Source of the DNA: Limnobacter humi
Lineage (GTDB): Bacteria; Pseudomonadota; Gammaproteobacteria; Burkholderiales; Burkholderiaceae_B
Assembly: GCF_024518835.1 (NCBI RefSeq)
Contig: NZ_JANIGO010000001.1
Span: 1 to 64,000, forward strand
Reading direction: 5' to 3'
Length of the DNA stretch: 64,000 nucleotides
This document shows, piece after piece, positions 8,949-46,042 of this stretch; the first letter of the stretch is position 1; every line of letters starts with the position of its first letter. The notes below the pieces were generated by a model, which saw only the letters and a program-made list of their open reading frames with translations, did no database searches and had not been told where the DNA came from. The translations under genes were made by a program, and so were the position numbers.

Positions 8949-8965
8949 TAAACTGCAAAGCTATT

Positions 8966-9036
8966 GTTCGAGGAGCGTTGCGACACCCGTTTTTTCGGGT
9001 GCTAGGCTCGAACTGAAAATAAACAACGGCGCTCAC
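8966..9036 (+). promoter_or_regulatory. S-adenosylhomocysteine (SAH) riboswitch
   Basis: The sequence has the conserved SAH aptamer elements. P1 is TTCGAG (8967-8972) with CTCGAA (9007-9012). The adjacent core reads GAGGAGCGTTGC. P2 is CACCCG (8984-8989), a T-rich loop and CGGGTG (8996-9001). The pseudoknot pairs GAGCG (8973-8977) with CGCTC (9030-9034). It is followed by a T-rich stretch and the AGGAGG of ahcY. Known members bind SAH and raise expression of ahcY when SAH accumulates. Confidence 0.93.
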
Positions 9037-9071
9037 GCTTCTTTCTTTTTGTTTTTTTAAAGGAGGGCGTG

Positions 9072-40618: not shown

Positions 40619-40780
40619 GGTGTGCCTGCAAATGCCCACCGTGCCCGACGAACACTGCTTGGCAGCAAGGGCGGAAACACGGGGACGTTGTAAATCGTTG
40701 CGCGTTGGGAGCGGATTCTACCCGTACTCTTTGGTAAAATGAAGACACACCCGAAAAATCAAGGGATTAGAAGCAGCGCC

Positions 40781-41431
40781 ATGGCCCTACCGTTTACCCT
40801 ACCATCCCTGGACGCGCTGTTGGCTGAAGCCGACAAAGCGCTGAAAACCCTAACAGCCACTCCGATTGCACAACGCCGCAACCCGGCCAAAAATATGCAC
40901 GGCAACTCGGACACCTTAAACGACCAGGAAAAATCCAAAGTGATTGGTTTGATGCGGGTGAACCACGTGGGGGAAGTGTGCGCACAGGCACTGTATCAAG
41001 CCCAGGCATTGTGCAGCCAAGACCCGGCCAAAAAGGCACTCTTTGTGGAGGCCGCCCGGGAAGAAGCGGACCACTTGGCTTGGACACAGGAGCGGCTAAA
41101 CGAACTTGGTGGTCGCCCCAGCCTGCTTAACCCACTGTGGTACGGCGGCGCCTTTGCATTGGGCCTGGTGGCCGGTCAATTGGGTGACAAGGTTAGCCTT
41201 GGGTTCATGGCCGAAACAGAAAGGCAGGTGGAAAAACACCTGAACAACCACCTTCAGCGACTACCGGCAGCCGATGTGGCCTCACGGGCCATTCTGGAGC
41301 AAATGAAACAGGATGAAATTGATCATGGACAGACGGCCTTGGCCCATGGCGGTGAACATTTACCCCTGCCGGTCAAAATGGCCATGACCGCCATGTCGAA
41401 GGTCATGACCACGCTGGCACAGAAAATTTAG
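40781..41431 (+). CDS. coq7: Demethoxyubiquinone hydroxylase Coq7
   Basis: Coq7 is a di-iron monooxygenase that hydroxylates the C6 position in ubiquinone synthesis. The 216-aa protein has the iron ligands in [22 protein letters not shown], and [11 protein letters not shown]-like [16 protein letters not shown] 40781 is preferred; an ATG at 40739 would add 14 residues. Its stop codon overlaps that of the convergent OsmC-like gene. Confidence 0.95.
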
Positions 41432-41850
41432 TCTTCCACGATGTCGTGGGTAAACACCAGCTCCGCAGTTTTGCCCAACATGGCGGAGGCTGAACAATAC
41501 TTCTCGTGGGACAGCTTGATGGCCCTGTCCACCAAATTGGGTTTCAAGCCTCGACCCGTGACCGTGAAGTGAAAGTTGATTTTGGTGAATACCTTGGGCT
41601 CCTTGTCCGCCCGCTCAGCCGTCAGCTTGACGTGGCAGTTGCGCACATCTTGCCCACTTTTGCGCAAAATCAGCACCACATCGTAGGCCGTACAAGCGCC
41701 GGTGCCCGACAAAACCACTTCCATGGGACGCGGTGCGAGGTTGTTGCCGCCGCCATCGACCGCACCATCCATGCAAAACATGTGGCCACTCCCTGTGGTG
41801 GCCACGAAACTCATGCCCGGCAAACCAGACCAACTCACTTCTGCTTCCAT
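41428..41850 (-). CDS. OsmC-family protein
   Basis: The 140-aa protein belongs to the OsmC/Ohr superfamily of peroxide-handling proteins. Candidate redox cysteines lie in [11 protein letters not shown] and [11 protein letters not shown]. Whether it reduces organic peroxides is not shown by the sequence. ATG 41850 is chosen over upstream in-frame codons to 41895. A perfect palindrome (41883-41897) lies 33 bp upstream. It converges on coq7 with a 4-bp overlap of the ends. Confidence 0.88.
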
Positions 41851-41882
41851 CAAATCACCCTGTAAAAACAGACAAACTTCAA

Positions 41883-41897
41883 TTGTGCTATGCACAA
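41883..41897 (-). promoter_or_regulatory. Palindromic operator-like site upstream of the OsmC-like gene
   Basis: TTGTGCTATGCACAA is a perfect 6+3+6 palindrome 33 bp before the OsmC-like start codon. It does not match the OhrR operators known to the author. Confidence 0.4.
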
Positions 41898-42017: not shown

Positions 42018-42065
42018 TAAAAACCAACAATTTAGTTGCTTTTATCGGCCACCGCACCAAATCTC

Positions 42066-42094
42066 TTGCACCGCAACAGAATTATGCCTACAAT
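42066..42094 (+). promoter_or_regulatory. Strong sigma-70 promoter for the predicted small RNA
   Basis: TTGCAC (42066-42071) and TACAAT (42089-42094) are spaced exactly 17 bp apart, predicting a transcript starting near 42101. Confidence 0.75.
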
Positions 42095-42100
42095 TCAATC

Positions 42101-42221
42101 ATCGACGTTGAAGATGTGACGAAGTTGATCCGATCCTCGTCACCCGACGCAAGATTGTCTCCTCCACCCTCCTCCTTTGGTGGATTTAAACCCAAGCACT
42201 CCGGTGCTTGGGTTTTTTTTT
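42101..42221 (+). ncRNA. Predicted small RNA with anti-Shine-Dalgarno loop
   Basis: A free-standing unit of about 120 nt runs from a near-consensus promoter to a terminator, with no credible reading frame. Hairpin 1 pairs GTGACGA (42116-42122) with TCGTCAC (42137-42143). Hairpin 2 pairs TCCACC (42163-42168) with GGTGGA (42179-42184) and exposes the loop CTCCTCCTTT, which resembles the 3' end of 16S rRNA (ACCTCCTTT) and could pair with strong Shine-Dalgarno sequences. The terminator forms hairpin 3. It lies just upstream of the separate rplM-rpsI promoter. Confidence 0.7.
42188..42221 (+). terminator. Terminator of the predicted small RNA
   Basis: CCCAAGCAC, TCCG loop, GTGCTTGGG, flanked by AAA on the left and nine T residues on the right. 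Confidence 0.9.
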
Positions 42222-42282
42222 CGTCTGAACACCCGAAAACCTCAAAAACACAAAAATTTTAACCGAATAATCAAAAGTTTGC

Positions 42283-42392
42283 TAAAATCGCGGGTTACCT
42301 GTTGGGAGAGCCTTTCGACCGGTCTTGGTTTCAAGGTCACAACAAGAGAGGCAACAGGTAAAGCGAGTACATTCAACCCTTAAGGAACAACC
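42283..42392 (+). promoter_or_regulatory. rplM-rpsI promoter and structured leader
   Basis: A TAAAAT -10 box (42283-42288) predicts transcription from about 42294. The leader begins with TTACCTGTTG (42295-42304), which pairs perfectly with CAACAGGTAA (42352-42361). Inside, CCTTTC (42311-42316) pairs with GAGAGG (42346-42351), and GGTCTTG (42321-42327) with CAAGGTC (42332-42338). The whole makes one rod with a six-base GGAGAG bulge. Ribosomal-protein leaders of this shape often mediate autoregulation; that role here is inference. Confidence 0.6.
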
Positions 42393-42821
42393 ATGAAAAC
42401 CTACTCAGCCAAACCCGGTGAGGTTAAACAAGAGTGGTTTGTGATTGACGGCACCGACAAGGTGCTGGGCCGCGTAGCCAGTGAAGTTGCGCGTCGCCTG
42501 CGTGGCAAACACAAACCTGAATTCACACCCCACATCGACACCGGTGACTTCATTATTGTGGTCAATGCCGGAAAACTGCGTGTGACAGGCACCAAAGGCC
42601 TGAACAAGAAGTACTTCCGCCACTCCGGTTTCCCCGGCGGCATCTACGAAACAAACTTCGACAAGATGCAGGAACGTTTTCCCGGCCGTGCGCTGGAAAA
42701 AGCCGTGAAGGGCATGCTGCCCAAGGGTCCGCTTGGCTACGCAATGATCAAGAAACTCAAGATCTACGCTGAAGCCGAGCATCCGCACTCTGCCCAACAA
42801 CCCAAGCCGCTTGAAATCTGA
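42393..42821 (+). CDS. rplM: 50S ribosomal protein L13
   Basis: The 142-aa protein matches L13 throughout ([17 protein letters not shown] near the start, PRGPLGY-type [15 protein letters not shown] near the end). AAGGA precedes the ATG by 8 nt. It is the first gene of the rplM-rpsI operon and follows a folded leader. Confidence 0.99.
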
Positions 42822-45998: not shown

Positions 45999-46042
45999 CC
46001 ATGGATGGGTGTCCGGCTTGGCAAACCCGGCCCAAATACACC

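Follow-up and report, generated by a model that had tools for sequence, protein, structure and literature searches.

A PhaR-type palindrome in the promoter of a conserved RF02278 small RNA of Limnobacter humi suggests a link between carbon storage and translation control

A small RNA (sRNA) gene lies at positions 42,066 to 42,221 of a 64,000-nucleotide stretch of the Limnobacter humi genome (assembly GCF_024518835.1, contig NZ_JANIGO010000001.1, positions 1 to 64,000), here called the window. We report that this RNA is the Limnobacter copy of a known family, the RF02278 sRNAs of the NcS27/S17 type, and that what is new relative to this known family is a PhaR-type palindrome in the promoter of the RNA. 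The best explanation of the observations as a whole, which we hold to be probable, is that of a PhaR-controlled sRNA that damps carbon uptake and whose regulator is titrated by polyhydroxybutyrate (PHB). The computed evidence consists of the family membership, the conserved mature sequence, the operator match, the missing operator in genomes without PhaR and a phasin-linked paralogue of the RNA. A first-pass annotation of the sequence had described a free-standing sRNA whose loop mimics the anti-Shine-Dalgarno sequence of 16S rRNA. That observation is confirmed and its interpretation is partly supported; what had gone unnoticed is that one half of a PhaR-type palindrome forms the -35 box.

Nucleotides 42156-42221 match the Rfam family RF02278, "Betaproteobacteria toxic sRNA", at a score of 66.3 bits, above the cut-off of 50, and cover the model from position 1 to 64 of 64. 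The layout of RF02278 is found as well, with a C-rich 5' end, a hairpin with a C-rich loop and a terminator hairpin. The alphaproteobacterial RNAs named for comparison in the first-pass annotation are not the closest family, ar14 (RF02344) scoring 27.2 bits against a cut-off of 58.8; anti-hemB (RF02837) was likewise below its threshold (29.8 against 49.5). RF02278 matches above the cut-off were present in 113 of the 121 genomes of the bacterial family of L. humi, in 99 of 150 genomes at the level of the order, and in all 12 genomes that were searched by model from among 80 named loci. The mature RNA is nearly invariant across the bacterial family: the 31 nucleotides (nt) from 42156 onwards were identical in 109 of 115 copies from the 113 genomes, a count of the copies recognised by a text pattern that left five weaker second copies (L319-L323) unmatched and that took in one of the two close copies in each of G096 and G116. 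The pattern is strict, and most named loci outside Limnobacter gave no RNA by it; among the stretches of six genomes that were also read, it gave no copy in L428, L429, L431, L433, L434 and L435.

The RNA is predicted to fold stably, both in its full length (42101-42221; -41.8 kcal/mol, z = -4.06) and in its short form (42155-42221; z = -6.47), and none of 200 shuffled sequences was equally stable in either case. The loop of the first hairpin reads exactly CUCCUCCUUU and copies the anti-Shine-Dalgarno tract of the 16S 3' end. The loop string CCTCCTCCTTT occurs once in the window against an expectation of 0.02. That such an RNA should block ribosome-binding sites, as had been supposed, agrees with the mode of action published for its relatives, and the strong terminator is where it had been described (Table 1). 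The claim of two hairpins holds for hairpin 1 and the terminator, which are conserved, and fails for the 5' hairpin: the leaders of 13 Limnobacter or Limnobacter-like loci had a mean column identity of 65% and no consensus pairs. This leader is probably removed by processing. Four reading frames of at least 30 amino acids touch the locus, namely one of 48 amino acids with a GTG start (42116-42262, plus strand) that crosses the terminator, one of 68 amino acids with a TTG start (42177-42383, plus strand) that begins within the loop region, and two of 35 and 30 amino acids on the minus strand. Judged by eye none of these is convincing, in line with the earlier statement that no credible frame is present.

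The promoter had been called near-consensus. Its position stands and so does the -10 hexamer TACAAT (5 of 6 positions), whereas the -35 hexamer TTGCAC agrees with TTGACA at 3 of 6 positions and the promoter was for that reason absent from the listing of an automated promoter scan. A TATAAT-like hexamer (4 to 6 of 6) recurs at similar spacing in the upstream regions of the bacterial family, and side-by-side reading of these regions revealed that the -35 box is one half of a palindrome. In the window this palindrome is CTCTTGCACCGCAACAG, a single mismatch, where up to three were allowed, away from YTKNTGCRNYGCANMAR, the published operator consensus of PhaR in Ralstonia eutropha (PMC12849132). 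The genome itself encodes PhaR (PF07879). Within the window alone the motif does not stand out: two 17-mers with at most one mismatch were found and 1.49 were expected, which is not significant, and the core TGCRNYGCA was rarer than expected (6 against 12.2).

The distribution of the core among genomes is far more telling. With one upstream region taken per genome, all 110 genomes of the bacterial family that encode PhaR (PF07879 match) had TGCRNYGCA at about 50-260 nt before the RNA, compared to none of the three that do not, in which the absence of PhaR was also checked with PF05233. Of 64 palindromes of this form the runner-up reached 13 of the 113 genomes, and 50 rounds of shuffling gave a mean of 3.96 genomes and a maximum of 9. 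In 109 of the 110 genomes the core sits on the TTGC of the -35 box. The three genomes that keep the RNA and lack PhaR (G057, G107 and G119) belong to three genera (g23, g24 and g5), and their congeners G022, G084, G106, G085, G004, G046, G076 and G099 have the core as well as both PhaR domains. G107 and G119 keep a TTCTTGC -35 element and a -10 element 17 nt further on, and the right, outer half of the operator is gone; in G057 no such promoter is recognisable. G107 and G119 have no phasin and G057 has one. Eight genomes of the bacterial family without the RNA are also without PhaR, an agreement to which little weight is given because these genomes are small (0.8-2.4 Mb) and one of them is 66% complete.

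Pairs of RF02278 copies about 0.4-0.6 kb apart were seen in L090 and L028 (genus g43) and also in G096 and G116, and each of the two copies in L090 and L028 has a PhaR-type core of its own. Two further weak RF02278-like RNAs, with TGTCTCTGTCTCCTCAAG... and TGTCTCCTCTTCTCCGCAAG..., recur in Limnobacter (L002 1501-1554 on the minus strand and L003 1501-1565 on the plus strand, with counterparts among L040-L051); the upstream sequence differs between them, and neither has a PhaR core near the promoter.

PhaR-type sites were also found at phaR and phasin loci. In 10 of the 12 phaR loci of Limnobacter, TTGCACTGCACG stands no more than 180 nt before the PhaR match, and a TTGCRNYGCA site is present in 16 of 17 phaR loci over all relatives. 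Of the phasin promoters of the 12 Limnobacter loci, 10 have two PhaR-type cores and two have one; where the positions of two cores were read, one precedes the -35 box and one follows the -10 box, the arrangement of the PhaR sites reported for R. eutropha phaP1 (PMC12849132). A search of the whole L. humi genome gave 20 operator matches, spread over 19 places, where the reversed pattern gave 8. Since several of these fall, by eye, inside genes, the operator pattern alone defines no regulon. A cluster of PhaR-type palindromes (G000:C12:513658-513745; L361-L363) lies between divergent genes that by eye resemble an acyl-CoA dehydrogenase and an SRPBCC-type protein.

The phasin locus is linked to the sRNA in a second way, as a weak RF02278 match directly follows the phasin gene in Limnobacter. 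Among 12 Limnobacter phasin loci, counted without the weak second phasin match L191, 11 have an RNA composed of TGTCTCCTCGTTCC..., a hairpin and a terminator, with its start 9-54 nt past the stop codon; the exception, L185, is without it. Two of these 3' RNAs were folded and both showed an unpaired 5' end of the UGUCUCC type followed by a hairpin and a terminator. The phasin gene of the L. humi genome itself is well supported (Pfam phasin, 2.6e-25), and this second RNA is probably cut from the phasin mRNA.

A different explanation is that the window holds nothing but an ordinary sRNA of RF02278, active at ribosome-binding sites, and that the palindrome belongs to another regulator or is an extended promoter element that happens to resemble a PhaR operator. 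This would be in keeping with TTGC being itself the -35 box, with the response of the Bordetella relative S17 to Bvg mode, with the quite different promoters of several Oxalobacteraceae-type copies and with the fact that PhaR binding at the palindrome is a prediction from sequence. It is nevertheless unlikely, in that the right half GCA, which lies outside the -35 box, follows the presence of PhaR in the genomes tallied above even though two of the three genomes without PhaR keep both promoter boxes, and in that similar cores stand upstream of the phasin and phaR genes of Limnobacter.

Beyond the bacterial family, the PhaR-type core is found at part of the RF02278 copies. Among 26 genomes of the order in which the best copy was read, the core was present within 400 nt in 14 of 18 genomes with PhaR and in 1 of 8 without. 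The 12 named genomes searched by model (four Cupriavidus and eight others) are not part of the tallies by PhaR. Each of the four Cupriavidus genomes has a copy with TTGGTGCG[TA]CGCA[AG]CAA on its promoter, which matches the operator at 17 of 17 positions, and all eight others returned at least one copy with the core 63-82 nt upstream. Several extra copies among L408-L424, from Oxalobacteraceae-type genomes, share the upstream pattern ...AATAAAGCAGAC...TATAGT.... In the Burkholderia-like genome G244 (L425-L426), the copy on the rplM side has a one-off core, TTGCTTTGCACAAA, and on the -35 box of another copy there is a core that agrees with the operator at 16 of 17 positions.

How the RNA may act is suggested by its published relatives, described here from passages of the papers cited. 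S17 of Bordetella pertussis is made from a sigma-A promoter as a 190-nt precursor that RNase E cuts to 67 nt, and it is Hfq-dependent. Without S17, 92 genes rise, and in 70 of them a matching sequence lies at the ribosome-binding site or close to it; repression at the ribosome-binding site was shown directly for one target, and the two stretches that match such sites, Sites 1 and 2, are conserved in Betaproteobacteria (PMC11722255). As S17 lies beside coq7 (PMC11722255), a gene that is also a neighbour of the window RNA, we take the window RNA to be the counterpart of S17, and from their position the unpaired stretch UUGUCUCC would correspond to Site 1 and the loop to Site 2. Both RNAs have a short form, of 67 nt in S17 and of a predicted length of about 67 nt in the window. 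They differ in that the leader of S17 is longer, in that S17 is reported as Bvg-linked and in that its repressor is unnamed in these passages, which speculate that for its promoter 'there must be a repressor' and which also note a 32-residue peptide (PMC11722255).

NcS27 of Burkholderia cenocepacia, which with ncS03, ncS05 and ncS62 shares the double hairpin, the CU-rich unpaired stretches and the terminator of the window RNA, is likewise processed from a longer form. It is more abundant in biofilm, in starvation and in glucose medium, its overexpression attenuates growth, and the targets predicted for its group are in carbon uptake and metabolism (PMC5688073). An effect of NcS27 on the use of amino acids and carbohydrates is reported as well (PMC10987360). 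Three of four B. cenocepacia homologues share an upstream motif, and what regulates the accumulation of these sRNAs is called unknown by the authors (PMC5688073). Relatives of the RNA are also treated in PMC4603805, PMC7011215 and PMC8780938. A similar layout is known from NmsRb/RcoF1 of Neisseria (RF02877), in which two CU-rich unpaired stretches are complementary to the ribosome-binding regions of metabolic genes; by score the window RNA is distinct from it (30.7 bits against a cut-off of 52). The closest precedent for the control proposed here is MmgR (alpha-r8) of Sinorhizobium meliloti, an sRNA tied to PHB whose promoter contains a dyad through which AniA/PhaR represses it (PMC12542648, PMC8401924). 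MmgR is a different RNA, from Alphaproteobacteria, and lowers phasin production, whereas such an RNA seems to arise from the phasin mRNA in Limnobacter.

Taken together, these observations are consistent with the following course of events. The promoter would give rise to an RNA of about 120 nt that is trimmed to a double hairpin of about 67 nt, and the two C-rich single-stranded stretches of the latter would pair, probably with Hfq, with purine-rich ribosome-binding sites and so lower the translation of uptake and catabolic mRNAs. PhaR binds DNA without PHB and moves to the granules once PHB forms (PMC12849132). A site that lies over the -35 box predicts repression that is relieved by granules: in the absence of PHB, PhaR would cover the -35 box and the RNA would be off, and as granules form they would titrate PhaR, the RNA would be made and carbon intake would be damped. 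In Limnobacter the same signal would also drive the phasin mRNA, whose 3' end bears a second RNA of this type. The higher level of NcS27 in glucose medium and starvation fits repression relieved in this manner.

That the RNA sequesters messages or initiating ribosomes wholesale, as a toxic RNA with a function in growth arrest, we consider very improbable. RF02278 owes its name to growth inhibition in Escherichia coli, and the attenuation of growth by NcS27 points the same way, but overexpressed S17 leaves exponential growth of E. coli unimpaired and impairs growth no more than modestly as the cells enter stationary phase (PMC11722255). The matching sites in 70 of the 92 genes raised without S17 delimit a defined set, and the coq7 neighbourhood of the RNA, kept in most genera of the bacterial family, is unlike that of a mobile toxin.

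Several observations weigh against control of the sRNA by PhaR and PHB. The left half of the palindrome doubles as the -35 box, so part of the conservation of the motif needs no repressor. No more than three genomes of the bacterial family keep the RNA and lack PhaR, one of which (G119) is 91% complete, and the genomes are related, so that the counts are not independent. In G086, a genome with PhaR, the -35 box lacks the palindrome and the core is found upstream of it. At the order level the best copy is without a core in four of the 18 genomes with PhaR (L240, L247, L257 and L265), one of which, G244, has the core at another copy; the core of L267 is at -144, off the promoter, and L259, without PhaR, has a core at -239 with no TTGC. 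The rplM-side copy lacks the core in all four Cupriavidus genomes, and the promoters of many extra copies in other genera are quite different, so that wiring is not uniform across the RF02278 family. The phasin 3' RNA was found in none of 25 phasin loci from the other genera of the bacterial family (L326-L350), where pattern matches in L333-L335 are by eye not this RNA, and in seven phasin loci of other families nothing was found but a doubtful pattern match in L173. In the cited passages S17 is reported as linked to Bvg and not to PHB (PMC11722255). The sign of control is uncertain because PhaR activates phaP3 (PMC12849132), and both the operator and its control are predicted from the DNA. 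The evidence on targets is weak, GGAGGAG-N2-12-ATG giving 24 matches against 11 for the reversed pattern. The list of genes obtained with this pattern, by eye an acyl-CoA ligase, response regulators, cytochrome b and others, was considered too weak for these to be claimed as targets.

Table 1. Coordinates of the sRNA, its promoter elements and its neighbours in the window
Feature	Position	Strand	Basis and remarks
Predicted PhaR operator CTCTTGCACCGCAACAG	42063-42079	+	Overlaps the -35 box; agrees with the published consensus of R. eutropha, YTKNTGCRNYGCANMAR, at 16/17 positions
Promoter TTGCAC-17-TACAAT	42066-42094	+	-35 TTGCAC 42066-42071, 17-nt spacer, -10 TACAAT 42089-42094; read directly
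Leader	42101-42154	+	Transcription start at about 42101, placed from the -10 position
Mature double-hairpin sRNA, RF02278 member	42155-42221	+	Rfam score and fold
Single-stranded 5' stretch UUGUCUCC	42155-42162	+	Unpaired in the predicted fold
Hairpin 1	42163-42184	+	Predicted fold; loop CUCCUCCUUU at 42169-42178
Hairpin 2, intrinsic terminator	42188-42221	+	12-pair stem 42188-42215, T run to 42221
coq7	40739-41431	+	PF03232, 2.2e-45; common neighbour of the RNA
OsmC-like gene	41428-41895	-	PF02566, 1.7e-16; common neighbour of the RNA
rplM	42393-42821	+	PF00572, 3.8e-43; downstream neighbour, outside the unit of the RNA

Among the neighbours of the RNA in the window, Pfam confirmed COQ7, OsmC, L13 and S9, and the best match of the OsmC-like protein, at 89% identity, is in named Limnobacter genomes. 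The order coq7, osmC, RNA, rplM is found in all 12 named loci of Limnobacter or Limnobacter-like bacteria (L092-L103), and in a Burkholderia-like genome a copy of the RNA sits between osmC and rplM. In stretches of up to 12 kb, one from each of 40 other genera of the bacterial family, coq7 was found in 36 and rplM in two; osmC was present in 38, at a distance of about 5 kb in some of these. This bears on the proposal of the first-pass annotation that the sRNA controls the neighbouring rplM-rpsI operon or translation in general, to which we give next to no credence. The RNA ends 171 bases before rplM in the same orientation, its loop copies the 16S tract, and among the start regions of 60 putative genes of the window rpsI ranks 16th in predicted pairing with it, at a moderate -13.6 kcal/mol. 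The terminator, however, separates the RNA from rplM, the two are rarely neighbours in the other genera of the bacterial family, and rplM ranks 43rd (-9.2 kcal/mol), so that neither gene stands out. The strongest pairing in the window, -23.7 kcal/mol, was with a Mem_trans-family transporter gene at 46001; by eye it falls on a CCACC/GGTGG repeat and not on a Shine-Dalgarno site, which makes the measure a crude one. Elsewhere in the window an SAH (S-adenosylhomocysteine) riboswitch, RF01057, was found at 8964-9041 on the plus strand (66.3 bits, cut-off 37).

Full-text searches of main texts in the library available found no literature linking PhaR to an RF02278-type sRNA. In the ncS27 papers sampled by term search, PhaR, phasin and polyhydroxy appear at most in references or journal identifiers, and the listings for sRNA with polyhydroxybutyrate and Cupriavidus necator, and for phasin with UTR-derived sRNA (from an untranslated region), held no such link. 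Terms for PhaR, phasin and PHB are absent from PMC11722255, and neither PhaR nor polyhydroxy is mentioned in the main text of PMC5688073 or in that of the review PMC10987360. According to a review of 2021, the role that riboregulation plays when Cupriavidus necator forms PHB 'remains undeciphered' (PMC8401924).

In its widest form the proposal is that of a storage-sensing brake on translation across Burkholderiales, in which the surface of PHB granules sequesters PhaR and thereby switches on anti-Shine-Dalgarno sRNAs directed against carbon uptake and catabolism, with the 3' end of the phasin mRNA releasing one such RNA in Limnobacter; PhaR could then also be the repressor of S17. We regard this generalisation as an even call. 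If it is true, making the granule-coat protein in Limnobacter also makes a translation-blocking RNA. A conserved PhaR operator would explain how this RNA, so little changed across the bacterial family, is switched, would tie carbon storage to translation control and would give a handle for producers of bioplastics.
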